From assembly GCA_024278775.1 (NCBI GenBank), contig JAJRSP010000154.1, positions 1 through 16,205 on the forward strand: a stretch of 16,205 nt of DNA, given 5' to 3'. Every line of letters begins with the position of its first letter. Position 1 is the first letter of the stretch. Below, piece after piece: positions 1,310-16,205 of this stretch. The notes beneath the pieces are model-generated. The model had not been told where the DNA came from. It was given only the letters and a program-made list of their open reading frames with translations, and did not search any database. The stretch comes from Planctomycetota bacterium (GTDB lineage Bacteria; Planctomycetota; Phycisphaerae; UBA1845). Both the position numbers and the translations under genes were made by a program.

Positions 1310-3466
1310 ATGCGTCGAAGACCATTCATCACACAACGACGGAAGCTTTCTGCGCGCGGGACGTTCGATATCACTCGTGTGCTCGCGGCGGTTATCGCTG
1401 GTGGTGCGTTGCTTCAACCGGCAGCCGCTTTTGAAGGTGTCACCGATACCACTTCGGCGGTCAACAGCCTGTTCGGGCTGCGAGCCAGTGCTCCGTTTGT
1501 CTTGACCTCCCCCCCATCCACTACGGCGACATCCAGTGCCTATCGGTTCCAGGTTCCGATAGCCGGTGGACTGAAAACCATCGAGTTGATTCCGCACTCC
1601 GTGCGAGCCCCCGGGTTCACTGTCGAGGTCCAACGAGCCGATGGCTCATATGAAACCATTGACCCGGGCCCGCCCTCCACACTTCGCGGGATCGTGGTTG
1701 GCCAACCGGGTAGCGTGGTGGCCGGTACTGTCACGGCGGAAGGACTACGGGCCATGATCCTGCTCGCCGACCACACGAAGCTATGGGTCGAACCGATACC
1801 AGCCCGAGCCGCCTCCGGGACGAACGATCACATTGTCTTCCGTCACGAAGACATGAACCCCACCGCCGCAGCGTGTACGCTGGCGCGCCCGGTCGATACG
1901 CCGACACCACTCGACAACGCCAACACCGCCTTCGGGGTGAACACGCAACTTGTTTCGGACGGTGTGACCGCCGGCATCACGATGGCTATCGCCGAGCTCG
2001 CGGCCGACGCCGACTTTGAATACTTCGCCAACTTTGGTGACGCCACCCTCGTCACCAACGACATCGAAAACATCGTCAACCTCACCGATATCCAGTACGA
2101 ACGCGACGTGCATATTCGCCATGTGTTGACGCGGGTGATCGTGCGTACCGCCGAGCCCAACGTCTATTCCCGGGTCTGTGCCGGCGGCAGCGCCAATAGC
2201 CGTCCATGCCACACAAATGGCGACTGTCCCGGCGGCGTCTGTCCGGCCGAAGTCGATCCTGATTCTCTGCTCAACACCCTCATGAACCACTGGAACACCA
2301 CGCAATCACACGTCGCACGTGACGTCACCCAGCTTTTTACCGGCAAGGACATGATAGGCTCGGTCATCGGCGTCGCTTGGCGCGGGACGAGCGCCACGCC
2401 CACCATTTGTGGAACCCAAACGACACGCAATCATGGCTATAGCGTCGTCGAGACCAATTGTGCCGGATGCAATCTGACCGCTAGACGAACCGACCTGACT
2501 GCTCACGAGTTGGGCCACAACTGGAGCGCGGATCACTGCGCCTGCCCCGGATGGACCATGAATCCGGCCATTACGAACGCGAACCGGTTCCATGAGACGT
2601 TTTCCATCCCCGAGATTACCGCATTTCGAGACACGCTGACCTGTCTCGACGCGACGAATGAACTGATACGGCTGTTCCTGACCACGGACAAAAGCGCCAT
2701 CGGCGAAGCGGAGACGCTACAGCTCACGGCCGAGGCGGATTTCGTGAGCGGTCCCAACCAGGACGTCACCACCAATGCCATCTGGGCGATCGAACCGCCT
2801 ACCGCCGGCTCGATCGATGCCGCCGGCGTGTTCACACCAACCAATGTCAACGGCTCCCTCTGCGTCACGGTGACGGGGACCTACTCGTCCGGCGGTATCG
2901 TAAAAAGCTCGCAGGTTTCGTTCACGCTGTATGACGATCAACAACCGCTAATGATCGTGTCCGCGGACCCGCCACTCGCAGCGATCGATGCACGGCAGCC
3001 TACCGATCCAAACGGAACGAACCCTGCCGGCTGGGATGCGCTAACCATCACGCTGAACGGTGCCATTTGCCTACCAAGTATTTTTGATTTCGACGTAACC
3101 GCTACGGGCGGATCGCAGGTCGTCCCGCAGGTGCTCTCGATCGATCAGCTTGACCCGACCACCTACACGTTACACCTTGAGTACGCGATCGAACCCGGGA
3201 CGTGGACCAATGTGGTTCATTTTGACACCGGCGTCACCACGCGGTTCGGCTATTTGCCCGGTGATGTCAACGGCGATGGCACCGCAGGCCCCGCCGACAT
3301 TTTGGCCTTGATTGACTCCCTCAACGGCGTGGGCCCGCCCCGACCCATCTGGTCGCTCGACATCGATCGCTCCGGCGTGACCGGCGCGCCTGACATCCTG
3401 GCCGTGATCGACTTGCTTAACGGCGCAGGCGGGTTTGACCCGTGGAACGGCGTCTCCCTTCCGTAG
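1310..3466 (+). CDS. Secreted metzincin-type zinc metalloprotease with dockerin-like tail
   Basis: This 718-residue exported protein has a signal peptide with a basic start, a hydrophobic core at about 21-35 and a likely cut after PAAA (residue 40). A region of about 250 residues, probably a propeptide and the first half of the catalytic domain, follows. HELGHNWSADH at 399-409 is the HExxHxxxxxH zinc site of metzincins, and Met417 in GWTMNP is the likely Met-turn; the layout suggests an M12B (reprolysin)-like enzyme. A Cys-rich segment at about 290-313 has a CxGG..PC..DCPGGxC pattern. An Ig-like region rich in Thr and Val lies at about 455-545. The end holds two Ca-loop repeats, GDVNGDG (651-657) with ADILALIDSLNG, and DIDRSG (684-689) with PDILAVIDLLNG, a dockerin-like module common in Planctomycetes. 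Codons end mostly in C, unlike the genes to the right. The ATG start has only a weak G-rich ribosome binding site. Substrate is unknown. Confidence 0.85.
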   Translation: MRRRPFITQRRKLSARGTFDITRVLAAVIAGGALLQPAAAFEGVTDTTSAVNSLFGLRASAPFVLTSPPSTTATSSAYRFQVPIAGGLKTIELIPHSVRAPGFTVEVQRADGSYETIDPGPPSTLRGIVVGQPGSVVAGTVTAEGLRAMILLADHTKLWVEPIPARAASGTNDHIVFRHEDMNPTAAACTLARPVDTPTPLDNANTAFGVNTQLVSDGVTAGITMAIAELAADADFEYFANFGDATLVTNDIENIVNLTDIQYERDVHIRHVLTRVIVRTAEPNVYSRVCAGGSANSRPCHTNGDCPGGVCPAEVDPDSLLNTLMNHWNTTQSHVARDVTQLFTGKDMIGSVIGVAWRGTSATPTICGTQTTRNHGYSVVETNCAGCNLTARRTDLTAHELGHNWSADHCACPGWTMNPAITNANRFHETFSIPEITAFRDTLTCLDATNELIRLFLTTDKSAIGEAETLQLTAEADFVSGPNQDVTTNAIWAIEPPTAGSIDAAGVFTPTNVNGSLCVTVTGTYSSGGIVKSSQVSFTLYDDQQPLMIVSADPPLAAIDARQPTDPNGTNPAGWDALTITLNGAICLPSIFDFDVTATGGSQVVPQVLSIDQLDPTTYTLHLEYAIEPGTWTNVVHFDTGVTTRFGYLPGDVNGDGTAGPADILALIDSLNGVGPPRPIWSLDIDRSGVTGAPDILAVIDLLNGAGGFDPWNGVSLP

Positions 3467-3776: not shown

Positions 3777-6700
3777 ATGTCTGTTCGTTTTATCGTTGGC
3801 CGCGCCGGGACCGGCAAGACCCACCATTGCATGGAGGCGATTCGTGCCGGGCTGCGTGCGGATGCGTTCCGCGGCCCACGCTTGATATGGCTCGTGCCCG
3901 AGCAGGCCGGTTTGCAGATGGAGCGTGCGATCATCGATCCCGCCGGTGGTTGCGACGGTGCCCATCGGGCCGATGTGGTGTCGTTTCAGCGGTTGGCCGC
4001 GCGTGTGTTGGCCGATGCACCCGGCGTGGATCGCGTGGCGCTGACGGAGCTTGCCCGGGCGATGGTGTTGCGGCGCCTGTTGGCGGCGAACGCCGCACGC
4101 ATGAAATACTACTCACGATCCGCCCGTGGGGGCAGCGGGACCGCTCGTGTGGTCGGGGTGGTGGATCGACTGAGCCACAGCATCGCGGAGTTGATCGAAG
4201 AGGGTGTGGAGCCGTCCGAGCTACTCGACGCGATGGGCGAGGCCGAAGACTCTGGTGCAGCGGGTGGACCCGAAGACTCTGGTGCTGGCTCCAAAGAGAT
4301 TGGCTCTCTTTCTTCCCCCCTTACCAAGGGGGGATTGAGGGGGGTTCTTCGGGCGAGCAAGGACCTCCCCCAGCCCCTCCTTGTCAAGGAGGGGAGCCGG
4401 AAGTCGAAGGATTTTAGTGGAAGTGGCAATCACGCGTCGAACCCCGCGCAACAAGCCAAGATGCATGATCTTGCGCTGATTTATCGAGCCTATTTGGATT
4501 TCCTGGGCGAGCGATGGCTCGATCCGACGCGCAGGCTCGAATTGGCCTCCGCCCATTTTGCAGACTGTGATTGGCTCCATGGGGCGCACGTCTGGGTGGA
4601 TGGTTTCGCGTCGCTGTCCGGGTTGGAACTCGGTGCGCTGATTGAGTTGGCCAAGCTGGCGGCGTCCGTGGAGGTGACGTTGCTGGCCGACCCGGTGTGT
4701 CTATCCGGCGACGCCGGCAGCGCGGGAGACGCGGGTTATCTGTTTGCCAAGACCGTGCGGATGTACGGCGACTTGCATCGCGCCTTTACGTCGGCCGGTC
4801 TACACGTCGAAGCGCCGGTGATTCTGGCTCCGGAGACGCCGCCGCGTTTCTCGACGCAGCCGGCGCTGGTGCAGCTTGAGCGGACACTCTTTCGCACGCT
4901 CCCTGCCGACGAACCAACTCCCCACGTGGGAGGTGCGGCCGTGCAACTGATCGAGGCGAGTTCGCGTCGGGTCGAGGTAGACTATGCGGTGTCGCGGGTG
5001 TGCCGCTGGGTGCAGGATGATGCGCTCGGCTACCGGTATCGAGATATTGCGATCGTGACGCGTGATTTGGATTCGTATCACGACCTGATGAGCGAGGCGT
5101 TGACCGCCAGGCACATTCCGTATTTCGTGGATCGGCGTCGCCCGGTGTCTTATCATCCGTTAGTGGAATTGCTGCGAACGCTGCTGGCGATGGCCGTGGA
5201 GGGGATGTCGCTGGCGAGTACCCGGGAGTGGCTCAAGTCCGGTCTGGTGCCGCTATCCAACGAGGCACTGGACGAGTTGGAAAACTATCTGATCGCGCAC
5301 GGTGTCGAGGGCATGGCGGTTTGGTCTGCGGGTGCCTGGGCCCATGATCGGATCACGGCGTTGGACAAGCGTCACCCGGCGCAGGCAGAGAAAACCGCAG
5401 AGGCGTTGGCGCGGGTGAATGCGGCTCGTGATCGCGTGTGGGGTTACTTGGGTCCGTGGATCGAGGACGCACGCCGGCAGAAAGCTGTGACGGGAGCCGT
5501 GTGGTACGAGTGGCTGATTGCCGCGTTGAATCGACTCGACGTGTCCTGGCAGCTCGCGCAATGGGCCGCCGATGCGGAATCCGATGGAGACCTTGATCTT
5601 GCGGAAGAGCATCGCGAGGTATGGAAGCAGATCGGCTCGTTGCTGGATGATTTTCGGTTTTCGTTTTCCGAAGACAGGTTGACGGTGGTTGAGGTCCGAG
5701 ACGTACTCGAAGCCGGCATGTCGTCACTGACGCTCGGGCTGACGCCGCCCATGATCGATCAGGTGTTGGTCGGTTCGATCGAGCGGAGTCGCCACCCGAA
5801 CATCAAGGCCATCATCGTACTCGGGCTCAACGACGGCGTGTTTCCGAAAAGACCGTCCGAAGACTCGATTTTCAATGATGAAGATCGTGAGCGTCTGATC
5901 GATCATGGGGTTCGCATGGGATTGCCGTCTCGTCGCCGCGTGATCGACGAGTCGATGTTGGTGTATATCGCGATGACACGAGCGAGTGAGCGGATCGTGG
6001 CCACATGGGCGACGACGGATGAGGCGGGTAAGGCGCTGCTCCCCTCACCGTATGTCGAGACGATCGAAACGGCGCTTCCCGAGCGGGAGCGGTTACGGAT
6101 CGATGACCCGACCCACGATCGGACTTGTTGGGACGTGCTTTCCGCTTGCGACCTGCCGCGCCGCCTGGCGCAGGAGTTTCGTGATAGGCCCGCTCTCGAA
6201 GAGGACGACCGTGCAGCGCGAACCACATGGAACGAGCTCTACACGGCTAGTCGCGATAGTCTGTCGGCGTCGGACCGGCGTAGTCTCTCCTCTCTGTGTG
6301 ATGACCGGGGCGGTGCGAAAGTAGATACGGCGTTGGTCTCACGGTGGTTGGGACAGCGGCTCAAAGCGAGTGTGTCTTCCCTTGAAACGTATGCGGCCTG
6401 CCCGTTTCAGTATTTCGCAAGGAGTATGATCAAACTGCGAGAGCGTCAGTCTCTGGAGCTTGCCCCCAAGGACAGCGGTACGCTTCATCACGCAGTCCTG
6501 GAGGATTTCTTTCAGCGTGTGATCTCTCGGAAGGATTCCGTGAGCCGGATGTCCGAAACGGAGCTGGTCGCCGGGTTGAACGAGAGCTGTCAACGCATCA
6601 GCGACATGATCGGCTCGAGCGATATCCTATCGGGTGCCCGAGATGCCTACGTCCTTGGTCGGTCGGCCGAGCTACTTGGCCGTGTCGTCGGCGCTCAACG

Positions 6701-7564: not shown

Positions 7565-8371
7565 ATGTGGTTGACGCGGGCGATCGCGGATCGAGCATCG
7601 TTGCTGTGGCACCGCGTATCGGAACGCGTCAGTCATGGCCGCGTCCCCGAGATGCCCACATCGGATGGTCCGGTGTTGGTGGTGCTGGATGGGGTTGGTC
7701 GGTTTCAGTTCGCACCATATACGATTCGTCGTGTGCTTCGTGAGCGGGAGTCGCCAATCGAGACAGTCATGTATGACTGGCAATTCGGTATTGTCGGCGA
7801 AATCTGGACCGATTTGTGTTGGTTTCGTCGCAACCGCGTCATGGGGGCTCGGTTGGCGCGCCTGCTACGACGGATTCATCGCGTCAGCCCTGACCGTCCG
7901 ATACATGTATTCGCATTTAGCGGCGGTGCCGGTATCGCTGTTTTTGCCTGCGAACGACTGGGTGAGCGCAGAATGGTCGACACATTAGTGCTGGCTGCTC
8001 CGGCCCTGAGCCCGGGCTATGATCTGAGACCGGCGCTGCGTGCCGTCGAGCGTTGTGTGGTGCTGGTCAGTCCGCGGGATCGACTGGTACTGGGGGTTGG
8101 TACGCGCCTTTTTGGCACGACGGATCGGGCGTTTGGGACGGCAGCCGGTCAGGTGGGCTTTGAGGGGATGAATGATTTGCCCCGGGTATCGGGTCCGGGC
8201 TATGATCGGTATCGGCAGATTCGCTGGGATGCGTCGCTTTGTCGTGATGGGCATTACGGCGGTCACGCCGGGTGGATCGCGCCGCCGTTCCTTCGGCGTT
8301 ATTTGCCGGGATTGTTGGGTGGTGACGCCGTGTGGTGGACGGAGATAGCCTCGACGGAACAGGAGTCGTGA
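7565..8371 (+). CDS. Alpha/beta-hydrolase-like protein
   Basis: This 268-residue protein (from ATG 7565) has the order expected of an alpha/beta hydrolase: a first strand VLVVLDGVG, a region of TVMYDWQFG, and PIHVFAFSGGAGIAVF with the candidate nucleophile Ser119 in a degenerate elbow (F-S-G-G in place of G-x-S-x-G). Asp172 in LVSPRDRLV and His234 in YGGHAGW could complete a triad. No N-terminal signal peptide or membrane anchor is evident. The substrate cannot be told. A GTG at 7559 is in frame, but ATG 7565 is better spaced (9 bases) from GGGAG at 7551-7555. It lies 71 bases after the addB-like gene and two bases before the YHS-repeat gene, which indicates co-transcription, at least with the latter. 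Confidence 0.65.
   Translation: MWLTRAIADRASLLWHRVSERVSHGRVPEMPTSDGPVLVVLDGVGRFQFAPYTIRRVLRERESPIETVMYDWQFGIVGEIWTDLCWFRRNRVMGARLARLLRRIHRVSPDRPIHVFAFSGGAGIAVFACERLGERRMVDTLVLAAPALSPGYDLRPALRAVERCVVLVSPRDRLVLGVGTRLFGTTDRAFGTAAGQVGFEGMNDLPRVSGPGYDRYRQIRWDASLCRDGHYGGHAGWIAPPFLRRYLPGLLGGDAVWWTEIASTEQES
8361..8365 (+). promoter_or_regulatory. Ribosome binding site that sets the YHS-repeat gene start
   Basis: AGGAG stands eight bases before ATG 8374, within the last codons of the hydrolase gene. It favours this ATG over an in-frame upstream start at 8332, which would add 14 residues ahead of the signal peptide. Confidence 0.65.
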
Positions 8372-8373
8372 GA

Positions 8374-9159
8374 ATGTTACGTAGCCGTGTGTCTTTCATC
8401 GTGATCGTCTGTGCGTTTTTTGTGTCTGTCGTGGTGGGTCATACTTTTGCAGAGGGAGCGTCCCAGGCCCCGGCGAAATCTCAGGCCACCAAATCGCCGA
8501 CAACGGACGAGAAGCCGGTACTGGGGGGCTATTGCGTTTCGTCTTATCTGATAGATCGCAAGGCGGTGAAGGGTGATCCGAAGTTTCGGACGATATTTCG
8601 CGGGCAGCTCTACTATCACGCCAGCGCCGCGCGAAAAAAAGCGTTCGATGAGGATCCGACCAAGTACCTGCCACAGTTTGATGGGTTGTGTACGGCGGCG
8701 TTGGGTGGGCCTTATGGTACCCGTCTCCCCTCCGACCCGCGCGCGTTTGCGATCCGGAATGACCGCTTGTACATGTTCTCATCGACCAGGGCCATGCGTG
8801 TTTATCTGAAAGACCCTCCGCACTACATTCGGGATGCGGAACAACGGTTTAACATCCCCGACTTCGATGGGTACTGCCCGGTTAGCTATCTTCTCCATGG
8901 TCGAGCGATCAAGGGGAACATACGGCATCCCGCCGTGTATCGTGGTCACGTATACCGTTTTGTCGACAGCCCCTCTCTCCATCTGTTCAATCAGGACCCG
9001 GAGAAATACCTACCACAGTACGAGGGTTTCTGTCCGGTCTCACTGGCCGACAGGAAGCAGGTCAAGGGCGATCCACTCGTGTTCTTGGTGGAGGACGGCA
9101 AGACCTACTTGTTCGCGGATGAGGCTGCGCGCGACAAGTTCAAGGGAAATCCAAGCTAG
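8374..9159 (+). CDS. Exported protein of four YHS-like units, stopped early by TAG
   Basis: The 261-residue product starts with a signal peptide: basic MLRSR, a hydrophobic core at about 6-22 and a likely cut after TFA (residue 26). Four YHS-like units of 50-60 residues follow, each opening with GYC, GLC, GYC or GFC. Units 1, 3 and 4 carry the family's PVxY/KAVKGDP start, a central YRGxxYxF-like strand pair and a DPxKYLPQ end; unit 2 is the most diverged. YHS domains (PF04945) are small and often found in metal-related or periplasmic proteins, but no specific function follows from this. The last unit ends at NPS followed by TAG, exactly where units 1 and 3 have Lys (DPTKYLPQ, DPEKYLPQ). The frame then stays open for 17 more family-like codons. 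See the separate entry for 9160-9213. Confidence 0.75.
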   Translation: MLRSRVSFIVIVCAFFVSVVVGHTFAEGASQAPAKSQATKSPTTDEKPVLGGYCVSSYLIDRKAVKGDPKFRTIFRGQLYYHASAARKKAFDEDPTKYLPQFDGLCTAALGGPYGTRLPSDPRAFAIRNDRLYMFSSTRAMRVYLKDPPHYIRDAEQRFNIPDFDGYCPVSYLLHGRAIKGNIRHPAVYRGHVYRFVDSPSLHLFNQDPEKYLPQYEGFCPVSLADRKQVKGDPLVFLVEDGKTYLFADEAARDKFKGNPS

Positions 9160-9495: not shown

Positions 9496-12213
9496 ATGAG
9501 CTACGAACGCGAAGAGGCTACGCCGAGATCGCTGGTGCTGTGCTTCGGTGTACTGGCGTGTTTCGTGTTCCTGTGGCCGGCGGTGCTGACCTTTGACGTG
9601 GGGGATTGGCCGAGCGCGAGCCAGTTCCCTTACAACTCTCCCGCGGCCAATGCCTGCGGTGCGGTCGGTGCCTGGCTGGCTTACTATCTACGTTATTTTC
9701 TCGGTTCCGGTGTGTACCCCCTGTTGCTGTTTGGCACGCTGGCGGCGCTGTTTCGTCTGATCCACGGCTATGTGGATCATCTGGTGGAACGCGGGCTTGG
9801 CGTGCTACTACTGATTGCGTGTACGGCCGCCGCCACGCACCTAATCCCCGGATCAAGTTCTCTGGCACCACTGCCCGGGCAGGGCGGACTTGTGGGCGCT
9901 GCGTTGGGAGAGTGGCTTCGGCATAGTGCAGACACGCTTGGCACGATCATCGTGTTGCTGGCGTCTTTTTTTGTGGGTTTGTTGTTTGCGACCGAGGGCT
10001 GGATTCTTCGTGTCCCATCGGCCATCAGCCATGTCGTTCGATCGTCGGCGATGCCGGGTTTGTGGTGGCAACGGTGCCTCGGTTTTCTCTCTTCGTTTCG
10101 CTTTGTGCCTGTTGGGTCCACAGTGACTGCTGAGGAGTCGGTCGCGTTGCTCGATGACCCTTCGCCGCCCCCCCCGCGTTCGAAGCACTCACGCAAGAAA
10201 TCGAGTGAAGAGGAGCCTACGCTCTTTGACGAAGTGGCGTCAGAAGAGGAACCTTCGGCCGCGGCCGGTGACGACGACGGGGAGTCTTCTGAGGCAGCGC
10301 CGCGAAGTCGTAGGGCGAAGAAGGCGGCTTCGCGACGAGCGCAGGCGATCGCAAAAGCGAAACAAGCGGCGTTGGTTGCGGCGAAGAAACAGGTCGGACC
10401 GATCGTCAACTTCCCCTCTGCCGAAAAACTTGAGCGTGCGGTGGCTTACCCCACGCAGATTGAAAATTGGACGCTTCCCAGCCGTGAGCTGTTGCACGAG
10501 CCTGATTTCGGCTTCAACGATGAGCAAGAAGTCATCGTACGTGAGCAGGCCCGCATTTTGGAGAAAACGCTCGAAGAGTTCCGTGTGAACGCCCAGGTGG
10601 TGGAGATCGACACGGGGCCGGTCATCACGATGTTCGAGTTGCGCGTGGGTCCGGGCATCAAGGTGTCTCAGATCGGGAGCCTCTCGAACGATATTGCACG
10701 GGCATTGAAAGCGCATGCGATCCGTGTCGTGGCACCGATATCCGGCAAGAACACCGTTGGTATTGAGGTGCCCAACATCAAGAGCGAGCGCGTCCGGCTG
10801 AAGGAATTGATGACGGTGGGTGGTGCACGCGCGAGCCGTATGGCGTTGCCGTTGTTTCTTGGTAAAGATGCCGGTGGTCAAGCGCTCATGTATGACCTGA
10901 CGAAGATGCCGCACATGCTGATCGCCGGAACGACCGGTTCCGGAAAAAGTGTGTGCCTGAATGCGATTATTCTCAGCTTGCTTATGACCAAGCGCCCCGA
11001 CCACGTCAAGATGATTTTGATTGATCCGAAAATGGTCGAGATGACGCAGTTCAAGGATATGCCGCATCTGATGTGCCCGATTATCACGGACATGCAAAAG
11101 GCGGAGAAGATTCTGGAGTGGGCCGTGACAAAAATGGAGGAGCGGTATGAGCTCTTGGCGGAGGCCCGCGTCAAGAACATCGCGTCGTACAATGCCCTGG
11201 GGCCGGAAGCGCTCTATGCGCGGCTGACACCGAAAACCAAAGAAGAAAAAGCGGCGATTCTCACGTTCATGCCCTATATGGTTATCATCATCGATGAGTT
11301 GGCCGACCTGATGATGACGGCGGGCAAAGAGGTTGAGCATTATCTTTCGCGTTTGGCGCAAAAATCTCGCGCCGTGGGTGTTCACATTATTGTAGCCACG
11401 CAGCGCCCGGAAGTGAAGGTCGTTACGGGGTTGATCAAGTCCAACCTGCCCTCACGAATCTGTTTCCGTGTGTCGTCGCGTATGGACTCGCGGATCGTAC
11501 TTGACCAAAATGGTGGAGAGGTGTTGCTAGGACAGGGCGACATGTTGGTGTTGCCACCCGGCGGGCACAAACTACTTCGCGCTCAGGGTACGCTTCTCGA
11601 AGACGATGAAGTGCAGGCCGTTCTGGAGGACCTGACCTCTCGCTCGAAACCGGAGTTCCATCCGGAGTTGATGCGGATCAAGACACCCGGGGCCGACGGT
11701 GATCTGAACGTTCGTGACCCGCTCTTTAATGACGCGGTGCGGGTGGTTCTGGAGTCACGACGCGGCAGTGTGAGCTTGTTGCAGAGGCGATTGACGATCG
11801 GTTATTCGCGGGCGTCGCGTTTGGTGGAGCAGATGTCGGACGCGGGGATCGTGGGCGATTACAAAGGGTCGCAGGCCCGTGAGGTCTTACTGACCTCGGA
11901 CGAATGGGAGTTGTTGCAGGCGCAGGTGAAGCGGGACATGGACGACGGGTACGCGGCTGATGCCGAAGACTTTGGTGAGTCGTCAGACGCCCTCGCGGTG
12001 CCGGATGTGGCCGAAACAGATGACGACGTCTGGGATGACGAAGACACGGAGGTGGGCGAAGCCACCGATGCGTATCTCGAGGAGGCGGGCGAGCAAGACA
12101 AGGAAGAGGACGAAGACGGGGAGGAGGAGCAAGAGTACGCCGAAGATGAGTATGAAGAATATGAGGAGGGGGAAGAAGAAGAGGAAGACGAGGATGAAGA
12201 AGAACGCGCGTAG
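9496..12213 (+). CDS. ftsK: DNA translocase FtsK/SpoIIIE
   Basis: This 905-residue septal ATPase pumps chromosomal DNA during division and, in many bacteria, activates XerCD at dif. The N-terminus has four membrane segments (about 13-33, 56-88, 101-118 and 147-170). A charged linker with Glu-rich and Lys/Arg/Ala-rich parts covers about 210-310. The motor shows Walker A GTTGSGKS at 478-485, Walker B VIIIDELADLMM with Asp600-Glu601, ATQRPEVKVVTG near 634 and the SRIVLDQNGGEVLLGQGDM segment. The winged-helix gamma domain that reads orientation sequences covers about 741-808 (DPLFNDAV to EVLLTSDEW). Unusually, about 90 residues follow it, with some 50 Asp or Glu and a nearly uninterrupted acidic run at the very end. 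The start has GGGAG ten bases upstream. No clear promoter or terminator was found around the gene. Confidence 0.95.
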   Translation: MSYEREEATPRSLVLCFGVLACFVFLWPAVLTFDVGDWPSASQFPYNSPAANACGAVGAWLAYYLRYFLGSGVYPLLLFGTLAALFRLIHGYVDHLVERGLGVLLLIACTAAATHLIPGSSSLAPLPGQGGLVGAALGEWLRHSADTLGTIIVLLASFFVGLLFATEGWILRVPSAISHVVRSSAMPGLWWQRCLGFLSSFRFVPVGSTVTAEESVALLDDPSPPPPRSKHSRKKSSEEEPTLFDEVASEEEPSAAAGDDDGESSEAAPRSRRAKKAASRRAQAIAKAKQAALVAAKKQVGPIVNFPSAEKLERAVAYPTQIENWTLPSRELLHEPDFGFNDEQEVIVREQARILEKTLEEFRVNAQVVEIDTGPVITMFELRVGPGIKVSQIGSLSNDIARALKAHAIRVVAPISGKNTVGIEVPNIKSERVRLKELMTVGGARASRMALPLFLGKDAGGQALMYDLTKMPHMLIAGTTGSGKSVCLNAIILSLLMTKRPDHVKMILIDPKMVEMTQFKDMPHLMCPIITDMQKAEKILEWAVTKMEERYELLAEARVKNIASYNALGPEALYARLTPKTKEEKAAILTFMPYMVIIIDELADLMMTAGKEVEHYLSRLAQKSRAVGVHIIVATQRPEVKVVTGLIKSNLPSRICFRVSSRMDSRIVLDQNGGEVLLGQGDMLVLPPGGHKLLRAQGTLLEDDEVQAVLEDLTSRSKPEFHPELMRIKTPGADGDLNVRDPLFNDAVRVVLESRRGSVSLLQRRLTIGYSRASRLVEQMSDAGIVGDYKGSQAREVLLTSDEWELLQAQVKRDMDDGYAADAEDFGESSDALAVPDVAETDDDVWDDEDTEVGEATDAYLEEAGEQDKEEDEDGEEEQEYAEDEYEEYEEGEEEEEDEDEEERA

Positions 12214-12374
12214 GAGCGGATGTCTGTGAGTTTGTGGCCCGTAACACCTCCGGCGGCTGCAGTCGTCCCCTGATACTTCTACTTCCTGAAAGCCCTTTCC
12301 CCTTATGCAGCCTGATCGGCACCATCCGCCGTTGCTGTCACGGAGCCGATTAGTTGGCCTGCGAGTAGACTTTC

Positions 12375-12403
12375 TTGACATGACGGTGGTCGTGCTGTAG
12401 AAG
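12375..12403 (+). promoter_or_regulatory. Candidate promoter of the B12-regulated operon
   Basis: A perfect TTGACA at 12375-12380 is followed after exactly 17 bases by TAGAAG at 12398-12403. Transcription would start near 12410, about 50 bases before the closing stem of the cobalamin aptamer, as expected for a riboswitch-led transcript. The stretch 12214-12374 after ftsK holds nothing else I can support. Confidence 0.55.
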
Positions 12404-12454
12404 GCCTGGGGTCGTCGTTTCGGCGGCTTAGTTTCTTTGACAACTGAATCGTAT

Positions 12455-12645
12455 GCGAGAACCGGCGTCCCACGGGGGCGTAAAGGGAAGGTGGTGAAAA
12501 TCCACCGCGGACCCGCCGCTGTAATCGGGGACGAAAACCGCACGAAGCCATTGGTGCTTTGAGGTGGGCGTTTCAAGACGCTCAGGCACTGAGAAGGCGC
12601 GGTGAGTAGGCCGATCCGAAAGCCAGAAAACCTGCCGGTTGTCGT
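12455..12645 (+). ncRNA. Cobalamin riboswitch aptamer
   Basis: The region carries the conserved cobalamin-riboswitch landmarks in order. These are the closing stem AACCGGC (12460-12466) with GCCGGTT (12634-12640), then TAAAGGGAAG with the GGTGG/CCACC hairpin (12490-12494 with 12502-12506), and then GACCCGCCGCTGTAATCGGG, in which CCCG pairs with CGGG. Next come GGCACTGAGAAGGC (12585-12598) and the B12-box-like AGCCAGAAAACCTGCC (12621-12636). These match the AGGGAA, CTGTAA, GCCACTG..GAAGGC and AGxCAGxxxACCTGCC blocks of the Rfam cobalamin family as I know it. Binding of adenosyl- or another cobalamin normally turns expression off. The edges are approximate. Confidence 0.93.
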
Positions 12646-12743
12646 TGGTGTTGGCGTGGTGCCTTCGGAGTTAGAGGTGCCGGTCAGGGCGGTCGTTTTT
12701 CACGCAGTGTGGCGCGGAGTCACGTGTTTGGTTCGACAGCTTT

Positions 12744-12779
12744 CCCCGGCGTTTTCTTCGGAATGTGCCGGGTTTTTTT
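12744..12779 (+). terminator. Intrinsic terminator in the riboswitch expression platform
   Basis: CCCGGC (12745-12750) pairs with GCCGGG (12767-12772), followed directly by seven T (12773-12779). The apex closes further through C-UUCG-G at 12756-12761, a very stable tetraloop. It sits between the aptamer and the first gene, so full-length mRNA needs read-through. GCCGG at 12679-12683 is complementary to CCGGC (12746-12750) and could be part of a competing antiterminator in the ligand-free state; that pairing is inference. Confidence 0.85.
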
Positions 12780-12832
12780 GTGGTTGGTCGTCTGCGACGC
12801 GGAGTTCGAGACGTCCGATGTAAGGAGGAAAG

Positions 12833-14032
12833 ATGTCAAATCGAAAGCAATCGGGTCTGTGGTGTGGTGTGGTGTCCGGGAGGCGATACGCGTCTTTGCT
12901 GGTAGGGTTGTTGGTGGTCGGCGTGAGTGCGGCCAGGACGAACGCGGATGCGGTCGAGCAGTATGTGCTGAGTGGGTCGTATGAGTTGCCGGTCGGATCG
13001 AGTGCGATGGATGTGTTGGCCGACGGTCGAGTGATCGCGCTTTCGGGCGATCAGCTATACGTCGAGACGGCCGCGGCATCGCGGGTGTTTACGCTCGTCG
13101 GAACGCTCCCGGCGGCGGACATCTCCAGCTATGGTGTGGCGTTTCTGGCCGCGTCTCCGGACGGCACGAGAATTGCCGTGGGTAACAACGGCGGTGTGAG
13201 TGGCGCGGACTACCGGGTGGGCGTGTTTTCGTTTCCTTCGCTGTCTGGAGTGTGGTTTTCCTCGAATCACTTTACCGGCACGTGGATGGATGCCACGCAT
13301 CTGGCCATCGCGGCAGGTGATTTCACGACGGGAGAGGTGATCGCCCTCGATGTGACCAGTCCGGACCCTGCGAACCCCATCGTCGTGACAATTCTTTCCG
13401 GTATTGGCGGCGCGTCCGGCGGCGTGGCTTTTGACCAGTTTGGCAGCCTCTACGTCGGCAACGGGTTTATGAGCACCGGCCCGAGCAGCACCGGCGCGGT
13501 CAAGGCGTTTTCCGAAACCGCTTGGCGCGGCGCGATGAACGGCGGCGGACCCATCAATTATGAGACCGCCGGGGACCTGGTCGTGGATATTCTCTCGGCC
13601 ACCTCGCTCGGGTTTGACGCGGAAGACAACTTGCATGTGGCCGGGGGTGACTTCAACATCTCCAAGGTGGATTTCGTCGCGCTGGTGCGCGGCCCGAATG
13701 TTTGGAACGCGACCCACGGCGGCGGGTCGGTCGACATCGCCGACACGACGCAGGTCCGGCGTCTTGATCCGGACCTGGCCAACGCTTTCAACTTCTATGG
13801 CGTGGTCGCCAACAAAACCACGCGAGAGCTACTCCTTCGCAGCGCGGGGGAGAGGACCGTCTATGTCTATGCCGATCCAACGCCGCCAGTGCCAACGGTC
13901 TCCGCTTGGGGGCTGATGGGGACGGCCCTACTTGGTTTGATCGCGGGCACCTTGGCGTTTCAACGGCCATCACCCGGGGCGCGGCCGGTATTCGCCCGCC
14001 AAGAATCGGCGTCACCCTATCGAGGATTATGA
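12833..14032 (+). CDS. Beta-propeller-like surface protein with IPTL-CTERM-type sorting tail, B12-regulated
   Basis: This 399-residue exported protein is the first gene behind the cobalamin riboswitch. The start is fixed by AAGGAGG four bases before ATG. The signal peptide has a basic start, a hydrophobic core at about 20-33 and a possible cut near TNADA. The body (about 40-345) has repeating strand patterns of YncE/NHL-type propellers, for example MDVLADGRVIALSGDQLYV, VAFLAASPDGTRIAVGNNGG, VAFDQFGSLYVGNG and LGFDAEDNLHVAGG. VPTVSAWG at 353-360, a hydrophobic helix (361-376) and Arg form an IPTL-CTERM-type tail, which exosortase H is known to process. A further 20-odd residues follow it, which is unusual. 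BtuG, the Bacteroides B12-capture lipoprotein, is also a beta-propeller; with the riboswitch this suggests B12 capture. That function is inferred, not shown. Confidence 0.75.
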   Translation: MSNRKQSGLWCGVVSGRRYASLLVGLLVVGVSAARTNADAVEQYVLSGSYELPVGSSAMDVLADGRVIALSGDQLYVETAAASRVFTLVGTLPAADISSYGVAFLAASPDGTRIAVGNNGGVSGADYRVGVFSFPSLSGVWFSSNHFTGTWMDATHLAIAAGDFTTGEVIALDVTSPDPANPIVVTILSGIGGASGGVAFDQFGSLYVGNGFMSTGPSSTGAVKAFSETAWRGAMNGGGPINYETAGDLVVDILSATSLGFDAEDNLHVAGGDFNISKVDFVALVRGPNVWNATHGGGSVDIADTTQVRRLDPDLANAFNFYGVVANKTTRELLLRSAGERTVYVYADPTPPVPTVSAWGLMGTALLGLIAGTLAFQRPSPGARPVFARQESASPYRGL

Positions 14033-14035
14033 CTG

Positions 14036-15124
14036 ATGATAATCAACAGCCCAAGACGGAGCGGGGCAATCGGCGTGTGGGTCGTGCTCGCGGGGATGCA
14101 GATCGTACGGGCGCAGTCTCCCTTTGCGACGACGGTGATCGACTATGCCCCTGCTCCCGGGCAGTTCGTGCAGGATGCCCTTTTTAACGATCCGGCGATT
14201 GCACTGGGGCCTCCCGTGGCCGCTGGGATTTCGAACGGCAACGAGGATTCCATCGTCACGCTTGGCGGATTCGGCGGTTCCCTTACCCTCGGCTTCGACC
14301 ACAGAGTGCAGGACGATCCGCTGAACCCTCTCGGGATGGATTTTATCGTCTTCGGGAATGCGTTTTGGGTTGGGGGTGATCCGGAGCGTCGCTTTGCGGA
14401 GTGCGCTACGATCGAGATTTCCCGTGATGATAACGGCAACAGCCTCGCCGACGATGCGTGGTATCTGATTCCCGGTTCCCACATCGTAGACCCGGCCGTG
14501 CAGTTTGAGATTCAGACGTGGGATGACAACACGGCCGACCCGACGTTTCCACCGGATTTTGTCTCGTGGATACCGATTGGTCAGAGCGGATCGTGGGATA
14601 CGTTCGGGTATGCGCTGCCCGTGGCCACGTTTGCGCCACCGTCGCAGGTCGTGCTTAACCCGATGGGTGATGGTGTGAACGAGGGCATCTTCGGCTATGC
14701 GGATTATTCGCCCACGCTGTTTCTTGGCGATCTCAACGCCGACGACATCGTGGACGATCCGACGATAACGGAAGAGGCGTTTTATACTACTCCGGACGAC
14801 CCGCTCACGGTGGGCATCACCTCGGGTTCGGGAGGCGGTGATGCGTTCGACATCGCCTGGGCGGTCGATCCAACGTCCGGTGTGCCGGCCAACCTGGACG
14901 GGTTCGATTTCATTCGGATCACCACGGCCGTCAATTCGGATCAGGGTTTTTTCGGAGAAGTGTCCGCAGAGATTGACGCCGTGGCCGATGTCACCGCGCT
15001 GGAACCGCCGAGCAATGTACCCACGGTGTCCGAGTGGGGCATCGTGATTATGACGCTGCTGTTTCTATCGACCGGGACGGTCGCGCTTCGCAGCAAGGTG
15101 CCGCTCGTCATTCGTGGAAGGTGA
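14036..15124 (+). CDS. Surface protein of a B12-locus type, with IPTL-CTERM-type sorting tail
   Basis: The 362-residue product has a signal peptide cut after VRA (residue 26). Its body has a distinctive set of motifs: SNGNEDSIVTLGGFGGSLTL (about 66-85) then GFDHRVQDDP, MDFIVFGNAF (101-110), IEISRDDNGN (126-135) with LADDAWYLIPGS, and FDIAWAVD (271-278) with LDGFDFIRI and GEVSAEID near the end. From memory, proteins with SLGGFGGS..GFD, DF.I.GNAF, DxNGNxxxDDxWYE and DIDWAVDxxG..V are encoded beside btuB/btuG in Bacteroidetes, where they are called cell surface proteins. VPTVSEWG at 328-335, a hydrophobic helix and Arg/Lys form the sorting tail. It starts three bases after the propeller gene's stop, so the two are almost certainly co-transcribed. 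The molecular role is unknown; ligand binding at the surface is inferred. Confidence 0.75.
   Translation: MIINSPRRSGAIGVWVVLAGMQIVRAQSPFATTVIDYAPAPGQFVQDALFNDPAIALGPPVAAGISNGNEDSIVTLGGFGGSLTLGFDHRVQDDPLNPLGMDFIVFGNAFWVGGDPERRFAECATIEISRDDNGNSLADDAWYLIPGSHIVDPAVQFEIQTWDDNTADPTFPPDFVSWIPIGQSGSWDTFGYALPVATFAPPSQVVLNPMGDGVNEGIFGYADYSPTLFLGDLNADDIVDDPTITEEAFYTTPDDPLTVGITSGSGGGDAFDIAWAVDPTSGVPANLDGFDFIRITTAVNSDQGFFGEVSAEIDAVADVTALEPPSNVPTVSEWGIVIMTLLFLSTGTVALRSKVPLVIRGR
15116..15121 (+). promoter_or_regulatory. Ribosome binding site that sets the pseudopilin start
   Basis: GGAAGG lies seven bases before ATG 15129, inside the last codons of the preceding gene. It favours this start over GTG 15114, which would place extra residues before the prepilin leader. 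Confidence 0.6.
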
Positions 15125-15128
15125 TGCG

Positions 15129-15953
15129 ATGTGGGATTCAAATAGCCTGCGTCGTCGCGGCGTGACCATGATCGAGATTCTCGTGGTGGCCGGGGTGATC
15201 GCCATACTGGCATCGATCTTGCTACCGAGCCTTGCCTCGGCCCGCGCCAGTGCGAGTGCCGTGATGTGCAAAAGTAATCTCGCGCAGGTCGTTCGGGCGA
15301 ATCTCTACTATGCGGATGAAAACGAGAGCACTTATTGCGCCGGGGCCGAGGCCATGCGACCGACGCCCGCGCGTCGGCGCGGGATCAACCTGCATCGGTG
15401 GTACGGCACGCGGGCACGGAGGAATGAGCCATTCCAACCGAGTGGGGGACCGTTGACGCCGTATTTGGGTAAGGACGGGCGCATCCGTCAATGTCCGGCG
15501 TTTCCTGCTGAGGAGATCGCTCGGGAGAGCGGCGGGTTTGAGCGCGGAGCCGGTGGCTACGGATACAATAATGCCTTCGTCGGGATGCAGGTCCACCATG
15601 AGGCGTCGGGTGAGTATACGGTGATATCAGACGCCGGCGGCGCACGAACGCATTGGGTTAAGAAGCCTTCGGCGACGGTAATGTTTGCCGATGCCGCGTT
15701 CGCGGGCCGCACGTTGATCGAATACAGCTTTGTCGAGCCGCGATATCAACCTCAGTTCCCACGCTTTCGCGCGGATCCGTCCATCCATTTTCGCCATCGA
15801 GTACGGGCCAATGTCGGCTGGGTGGACGGTCACGTCGATGCGAGAAACATGACCTTCACGTCCAGCAGCGGCATCTACTCGATACCAGCCAAGCGGTACG
15901 ACATCGGCTGGTTCGGCGAGAGGGACGACAACAGCCTGTTCGATCTCGAGTAA
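15129..15953 (+). CDS. Type II pseudopilin-like protein with H-x9-DG tail
   Basis: This 274-residue protein begins with a prepilin leader, MWDSNSLRRRG, cut by prepilin peptidase after Gly11, followed by VTMIEILVVAGVIAILASIL with the invariant Glu at mature position 5 and a hydrophobic helix. The C-terminal part has His223, nine residues, then Asp233-Gly234 (HRVRANVGWVDG), the H-x9-DG signature of planctomycete pseudopilin-like families such as DUF1559. Two further cysteines (IRQCPAF and the MCKSNL turn) may form a disulphide. It follows the IPTL-CTERM gene by four bases and so belongs to the B12-regulated unit by position. Pseudopilins of this group are numerous in planctomycetes and their roles are mostly unknown. 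Whether this one helps in B12 uptake or is just a passenger cannot be told. Confidence 0.85.
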   Translation: MWDSNSLRRRGVTMIEILVVAGVIAILASILLPSLASARASASAVMCKSNLAQVVRANLYYADENESTYCAGAEAMRPTPARRRGINLHRWYGTRARRNEPFQPSGGPLTPYLGKDGRIRQCPAFPAEEIARESGGFERGAGGYGYNNAFVGMQVHHEASGEYTVISDAGGARTHWVKKPSATVMFADAAFAGRTLIEYSFVEPRYQPQFPRFRADPSIHFRHRVRANVGWVDGHVDARNMTFTSSSGIYSIPAKRYDIGWFGERDDNSLFDLE

Positions 15954-16072
15954 CGGATACGTCTCTTGCAGGCCCACCGTGTTGCGCTACCCTCACACGT
16001 ACCATCACGGTCGGTGATTCGGTCCATCGTGAGATGACCACATCAGCCATGCCCGTTTCTTTGGGTGATTCG

Positions 16073-16205
16073 TTAGGCTCTGTCTGAAAACAGTATTTTG
16101 AGGTAACGCCGTATCATTGCCAACTGAAGCATCCCATGGAAGTTAACGGCCAATTTTTCGAATCGCGTTCCGATCCGCCGCGATTCCTTCATCCATCCGA
16201 CGCAC
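16073..16205 (-). CDS. IS5-family-like transposase, C-terminal 43 residues (cut by window edge)
   Basis: Read leftward from the window end, the frame encodes CVGWMKESRRIGTRFEKLA, then VNFHGMLQLAMIRRYLKIL and FSDRA, followed by TAA (16073-16075). This matches the end of IS5-family DDE transposases, where the catalytic Glu stands seven residues before a Lys (the YREK signature) and is followed by RRIATRYEKLAxNFxAMxxLAxI. Here Lys6 of the visible part fits the signature Lys, putting the Glu just outside the window. The assignment to the family is from memory of the pattern; the subgroup is open. The gene points toward the B12-regulated operon and is separated from it by about 120 bases with no gene. 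Confidence 0.8.
   Translation of the reverse strand, partial: CVGWMKESRRIGTRFEKLAVNFHGMLQLAMIRRYLKILFSDRA
16076..16205 (-). mobile_element. Right-hand part of an insertion sequence, running off the window
   Basis: The transposase fragment reaches almost to GGCTCTGTCTGAAAACAG at 16076-16093, which looks like the terminal inverted repeat of an IS5-group element. The other end lies outside the window, so the inverted repeat cannot be confirmed. If the element ends at 16076, the preceding TTA (16073-16075) would be outside it and could be the target duplication. Confidence 0.6.

Follow-up and report, generated by a model that had tools for sequence, protein, structure and literature searches.

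A probable B12-repressed cobamide-capture cassette behind a cobalamin riboswitch in a planctomycete contig

The window analysed here, the whole stretch of 16,205 nucleotides from contig JAJRSP010000154.1 of a Planctomycetota bacterium (GenBank assembly GCA_024278775.1), includes a cobalamin (vitamin B12) riboswitch followed by three genes, which code for a predicted beta-propeller protein (gene 1), a BtuH-family protein (gene 2) and a pseudopilin (gene 3; Table 1). This operon is probably a B12-repressed cobamide-capture cassette of planctomycetes. The computations detected the riboswitch and an intrinsic terminator, the homology and predicted fold that join gene 2 to BtuH, and a linkage of riboswitch, binder genes and pseudopilin gene that is conserved in relatives. 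A preliminary description of the same DNA had proposed that a propeller protein and a second surface protein capture B12 at the planctomycete surface together with a pseudopilin. This hypothesis is supported, because the riboswitch is conserved with the genes, gene 1 is predicted to be a propeller and gene 2 is a BtuH homologue.

Table 1. Features of the riboswitch operon, with positions in the window.
Feature	Positions	Strand	Details
Possible promoter	12375..12403	+	TTGACA 12375-12380, TAGAAG 12398-12403, spacing 17; sequence only
Cobalamin riboswitch aptamer, RF00174	12446..12653	+	102.1 bits, E 5.4e-25, model 1-189 of 189
Intrinsic terminator	12745..12779	+	8-bp stem CCCGGCGT/GTGCCGGG, 12-nt loop, T7
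Gene 1, exported six-bladed beta-propeller protein, 399 aa	12833..14032	+	Signal-peptide-like N-terminus (by eye), IPTL-like tail VPTVSAWG
Gene 2, exported BtuH-family protein, 362 aa	14036..15124	+	Signal-peptide-like N-terminus (by eye), IPTL-like tail VPTVSEWG
Gene 3, pseudopilin, 279 aa	15114..15953	+	GTG start 15114 (in-frame ATG 15129), type IV pilin N-terminus, conserved IGWFGxxDDNSLFDL-type end

The aptamer covers the full length of the family model and scores far above its gathering cut-off of 31.5 bits. The stem of the terminator is formed by six G-C and two G-U pairs; a generic scan of both strands of the region 12200-12900 found six terminator-like sites against 0.9 in shuffles, and 36 of 78 related pseudopilin-bearing sites had such a site 3' of the aptamer against 0.6 expected from mononucleotide shuffles. 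The three genes lie on the same strand, with a gap of three nucleotides between genes 1 and 2 and an overlap of genes 2 and 3, which turns into a gap of four nucleotides if the in-frame ATG is used. The aptamer, terminator and closely spaced genes of the preliminary description were thus all recovered. Its promoter fared less well, as the TTGACA element is perfect but only TAGAAG is found 17 nucleotides downstream of it, and a consensus scan found no promoter. It was right that none of the genes encodes a B12 enzyme or membrane transporter of a known kind, but it missed that gene 2 is homologous to a known B12-binding protein.

Sequence comparison joined gene 2 to the BtuH domains 8blw_B (1.5e-22) and 7biz_A (4.8e-18), and its predicted fold is the BtuH fold. 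B12 binding has been measured for BtuH2 (PMC8941943), and the BtuH domain of BtuG1 binds B12 as well (PMC10404256). Because of this homology gene 2 is strongly predicted to bind B12, which strengthens the capture idea beyond the basis on which it was first proposed. The nucleotide-loop contacts Gln333 and Asn399 of BtuH2 align with Q43 and N108 of gene 2, and were kept in 40 and all 42 sequences, respectively, of an alignment that included the window and held 42 of the 120 listed gene 2 relatives (996 found); the contact F401 was kept in 28 of the 42. Compared with BtuH2 (7BIZ), no PKD domains were found in gene 2 and no lipobox was seen by eye.

The predicted model of gene 1 is a propeller, as had been proposed, with six blades counted from the predicted strands and with six-bladed proteins as the best fold matches. 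Gene 1 may also bind B12, although the case is weaker than for gene 2. Kinship of gene 1 with BtuG is not supported: gene 1 had no sequence match in PDB or Pfam and none to BtuG, and the BtuG2 propeller is seven-bladed (PMC10404256), so gene 1 was rejected as a BtuG homologue. BtuG was also not among the listed rows of either fold search made with gene 1, which by itself excludes nothing. The exosortase-type anchors given to both proteins are likewise not a firm assignment. Gene 2 scored 17.9 against a cut-off of 20.5 and 15.4 against 20.8, below the IPTL-CTERM/exosortase cut-offs, and gene 1 had no match to these sorting domains in the curated-family search. The motif is nevertheless visible by eye in both proteins, some gene 1 relatives are listed with PF18203, and a loose IPTL-type tail pattern fits 25 of the 53 sequences aligned from 75 proteins related to gene 1.

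Gene 3 is a pseudopilin, as described earlier: its prepilin N-terminal motif scored 19.8 bits in TIGR02532 (cut-off 16.3) and 20.7 in PF07963, just below the cut-off of 21.2. The C-terminal motif GW.G..D.N..FDL was invariant in 12 aligned pseudopilins, gene 3 included.

A single scan across species genomes yielded 38 loci with a propeller related to gene 1. RF00174 exceeded its gathering score in 31 of these and gave matches below the cut-off in two (L024, L035); at four loci without a riboswitch (L006, L010, L019, L020) less than 1 kb lies upstream before the contig end, and in the fifth, L018 of Desulfospira, none was found in the DNA examined. BtuH was present in 33 of the 38 loci (own profile, E < 1e-8) and the pseudopilin in 31 (own profile, E ≤ 1e-20). 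Locus L020 has a weaker BtuH-like open reading frame 5' of the propeller (1.3e-6), and of the seven loci in which no pseudopilin was detected, four (L006, L011, L014, L036) run up to the end of their contig. Propeller and BtuH form a single frame of 822 residues in L028. In L018 (7812-9932) and L019 (542-2581, Desulfocicer), both of Desulfobacterota, the propeller lies within a longer protein with a similar C-terminus, and neither BtuH nor a pseudopilin was detected in the DNA examined.

The wider survey comprised 101 genomes around genome G001, drawn from its class, some of them titled Phycisphaerae. A limited number of candidates was scored per genome. Many are incomplete assemblies, so that a single absence means little. 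The analysis used riboswitch matches at 109 places in 94 genomes, with one copy in 80, two in 13 and three in one, and RF00174 exceeded its cut-off in 93 genomes. Of these places 103 were examined, 93 of them with at least 4 kb to read; one of the two places in G082 was left out, G001, G012 and G013 are represented by L001, L016 and L017, the second copy of G037 lies inside L147, the sites of G117 and G103 are incomplete at contig ends, and L207 and L208 were excluded from the class counts. A gene was counted as riboswitch-linked when it lay behind the riboswitch on the same contig and strand within 6.5 kb, and CTERM and dockerin-like tails were assigned by loose patterns.

BtuH was detected in 38 class genomes and was riboswitch-linked in 37 of them. 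Propeller matches at 1e-3 were found in ten genomes, six of them strong and all six riboswitch-linked, the other four weak or in the tail only. The DUF4465 family, to which BtuJ belongs, has a different fold and is not present in the window, and it replaces the binder behind the same riboswitch in 15 of the 16 class genomes in which it was detected; the exception, in G125, is located close to the start of its contig, as is its pseudopilin. DUF4465 occupies the position of the window's propeller in G093, and G030 has a BtuH-like protein, a PQQ-type propeller-repeat protein (PF13360, 8e-20) and a pseudopilin in this order, with G066 looking similar. The binder therefore seems exchangeable. A chance neighbourhood of riboswitch and genes was rejected on the co-occurrence both in the propeller loci and in the class.

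The most constant riboswitch partner was the pseudopilin, present at 75 of the 93 readable sites and preceded at 63 of the 75 by a BtuH, propeller, CTERM-tailed or dockerin-like protein. No other gene separates it from the riboswitch at four sites (L110, L154, L188, L196). Genome G029 has two divergent riboswitches about 100 bases apart (L117, L188), with a BtuH-type CTERM gene on one side and the pseudopilin on the other. Pseudopilins scoring above 200 bits were riboswitch-linked in 27 of 29 genomes.

Pilin-like proteins are common, and the linkage could be a by-product of this commonness, an explanation weighed by the rarity of extra matches, the tails and a tree. The 491,037 bases around the 38 propeller loci contained 32 pseudopilin reading frames at ≤ 1e-20, distributed over 31 loci, and L031 had four weaker ones; since 29 of the same loci and the window had gone into the profile, only the rarity of extra matches counts here. 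As controls served 40 regions of the same genomes, mostly around matches to the 12-sequence alignment that are not riboswitch-linked, together with the unlinked copy of G084 and an arbitrary stretch of G030; 39 of them had a pilin-like protein. These share the prepilin N-terminus with the linked pseudopilins, but the C-terminal tail pattern was present in 63 of 79 linked pseudopilins and in none of the 39 controls, the pattern having been written after the linked tails were inspected and missing a similar tail in the G084 control. In a tree of 119 sequences, in which the linked pseudopilins group separately from the other pilin-like proteins that their genomes encode, the linked/unlinked label required four changes against a mean of 33 when shuffled, and none of the 500 shuffles was as low. 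The tree did not support a single origin of the linked pseudopilins, as at least three changes are forced, and the lower-scoring linked ones (about 1e-25) were not separable from the background by score alone. The G084 control (L241) is itself a pseudopilin copy of more than 200 bits distant from the riboswitch, with the tail LGWFEPLDNSLIDLD.

Several results weigh against reading the operon as a B12-capture cassette. The contact Trp577 of BtuH2 is not kept, being replaced by Phe in gene 2 and variable in its relatives, and the contacts His476, Tyr510 and Trp511 lie outside the sequence alignment. The propeller of gene 1 has six blades rather than seven and lacks a sequence match to BtuG. The class sample does not include the window's own genome. 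BtuH matches were strong and full-length in only eight of the 38 genomes, the other 30 being partial (E about 1e-18 to 6e-5), and in the range examined no pseudopilin was found at 18 of the 93 readable sites. For the larger, fused propeller proteins of Desulfospira and Desulfocicer (2 of 38 loci) no riboswitch was found in the DNA examined, the latter protein lying near a contig end.

Most class genomes seem to need imported cobamide, because CbiC was found in 3 of the 101 and the MetH activation domain in 60. A FecCD protein was present in 100 of the 101, and of the 112 places with a strong FecCD match 10 have a riboswitch within 5 kb, where about 0.3 would be expected by a hand estimate; among these riboswitches are some that regulate cob genes or a TonB receptor and not the cassette. 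FecCD also serves siderophores. Cobalamin riboswitches usually turn genes off when B12 is present, and because this is their usual mode, low intracellular B12 would leave the transcript unterminated, so we infer repression of the operon by B12. The exported binders, a six-bladed propeller and a BtuH-family protein, would then be made together with a dedicated pseudopilin, and would retain cobamides on the cell surface or outside it. Most likely the pseudopilin would serve a type II secretion or type IV pilus-like machine, which would export the binders through a secretin or display them, and uptake would end in a FecCD (BtuC)-type ATP-binding cassette (ABC) importer.

The pseudopilin could instead be part of the uptake route, the binders loading B12 onto a pilus-like fibre or secretin-associated complex that would replace BtuB in moving it across the outer membrane. 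We consider this unlikely, as we do the broader proposal of a TonB-independent B12 acquisition in Phycisphaerae, in which interchangeable binders (propeller, BtuH, DUF4465), a pseudopilin and a secretin would bring the vitamin or the loaded binder across the outer membrane. The TonB Plug domain was found in only 40 and the receptor barrel over its cut-off in 39 of the 101 genomes, and no Plug was found in 18 of the 27 genomes with a linked pseudopilin above 200 bits or in 19 of the 37 with a linked BtuH. The genomes G030, G060 and G066, in which the riboswitch contig is about the whole genome in length, all have the riboswitch, a partial BtuH, a lower-scoring linked pseudopilin, the MetH domain, FecCD and a secretin, with no match to Plug, TonB barrel or CbiC. 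When all 95 Plug places were checked, a TonB receptor was directly 3' of the riboswitch at two sites, in G049 and G094, and no pseudopilin was found at either; the sites at which the pseudopilin comes first point in the same direction, as does the presence of a secretin in 101 of 101 genomes. Secretins serve many systems, however, the TonB absences would equally follow from porins, vesicles or a transporter that escaped recognition, and the cassette is kept also in genomes with TonB receptors (9 of 27). Vitamin uptake driven by pili is not known to us from any bacterium.

It is also improbable, if anything more so, that the binders serve storage, vesicle release or competition for B12 between cells, in the manner of BtuJ on Bacteroides vesicles. 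The three genes of the window include no transporter, and vesicle-borne BtuJ delivers cobalamin in B. thetaiotaomicron (PMC12751083), but repression through a B12 riboswitch fits scarcity, and with CbiC not found in 98 of the 101 genomes intake must occur. The exported proteins could also have functions unrelated to B12, such as adhesion or polysaccharide binding, and be regulated by B12 status only. Propellers and carbohydrate-binding-like folds are general binders, and at other sites the first gene often shows no known domain apart from PEP-CTERM or dockerin. This reading is very improbable, as two separate families with measured B12 binding are nearly confined to the riboswitch position in the class sample (BtuH in 37 of 38 genomes, DUF4465 in 15 of 16).

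The cassette most resembles the BtuB-BtuG-BtuH loci of Bacteroides thetaiotaomicron, which have the same cobalamin riboswitch, the same pairing of propeller and BtuH, joined in one protein in BtuG1 (PMC10404256), and secreted B12-binding proteins. These proteins are lipoproteins working with the TonB-dependent BtuB, and more than 80% of btuH homologues are in an operon with btuB (PMC8941943), while here the tails are CTERM-like or dockerin-like, the third gene is a pseudopilin and the three genes include no TonB receptor or btuB; the window ends 252 bases past gene 3, and a btuB may follow farther downstream. DUF4465 proteins bind B12 in vitro, including 'Pan' of Mucisphaera calidilacus (Phycisphaerae), and their genes elsewhere often stand beside TonB and ABC transporter genes (PMC13398666); the string 'planctomyc' does not occur in the main text of that paper. 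Among the papers that searches of open-licence PMC text listed, none describes a system of riboswitch, binder and pseudopilin in its title or opening abstract; one of them, PMC12530212, concerns cyclic di-GMP riboswitches.

Elsewhere in these genomes cobalamin riboswitches stand before CobU-type genes (L169) and ribonucleotide reductases (L131, L142), and at L153 and L163 before a radical SAM/SPASM-type gene (by Pfam in L163, by a similar ending in L153). A riboswitch-linked protein of 664 residues in G096 (L122, 293-2287) contains a weak internal match to PEP-CTERM and, following it, a DUF4465 domain, which suggests fused or frame-joined binders. Elsewhere in the window, a Clostridiales-2 RNA match at 4323-4414 was below its cut-off and was discarded; its source is a repeat-like GGGGGG...CCCCTCC stretch inside a gene of 1242 residues, which may be an inserted palindromic element. 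A reprolysin-like metalloprotease with a dockerin-type end is encoded at 1310-3466 (+), and at 8332-9159 (+) a protein that looks exported and has three YHS stretches, scoring above the NCBIfam YHS_seleno_dom cut-off. The right end of the window, 16060-16205 on the minus strand, is the end of an open frame (...RIGTRFEKLAVNFHGMLQLAMIRRYLKILFSDRA*), presumably the C-terminus of an insertion sequence transposase, and the contig probably breaks there.

BtuH was first characterised in loci of gut Bacteroidetes, most of which also contain BtuB, and here its relatives stand behind a B12 riboswitch, usually the only one of the genome, in a planctomycete class. Most of the genomes sampled from this class show no CbiC, and in about 60% of them no TonB-dependent receptor was found. 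This raises the questions by which route the large vitamin enters these bacteria and why the riboswitch has no partner as constant as the pseudopilin. The findings also suggest a ligand for many 'hypothetical' PEP/IPTL-CTERM proteins.

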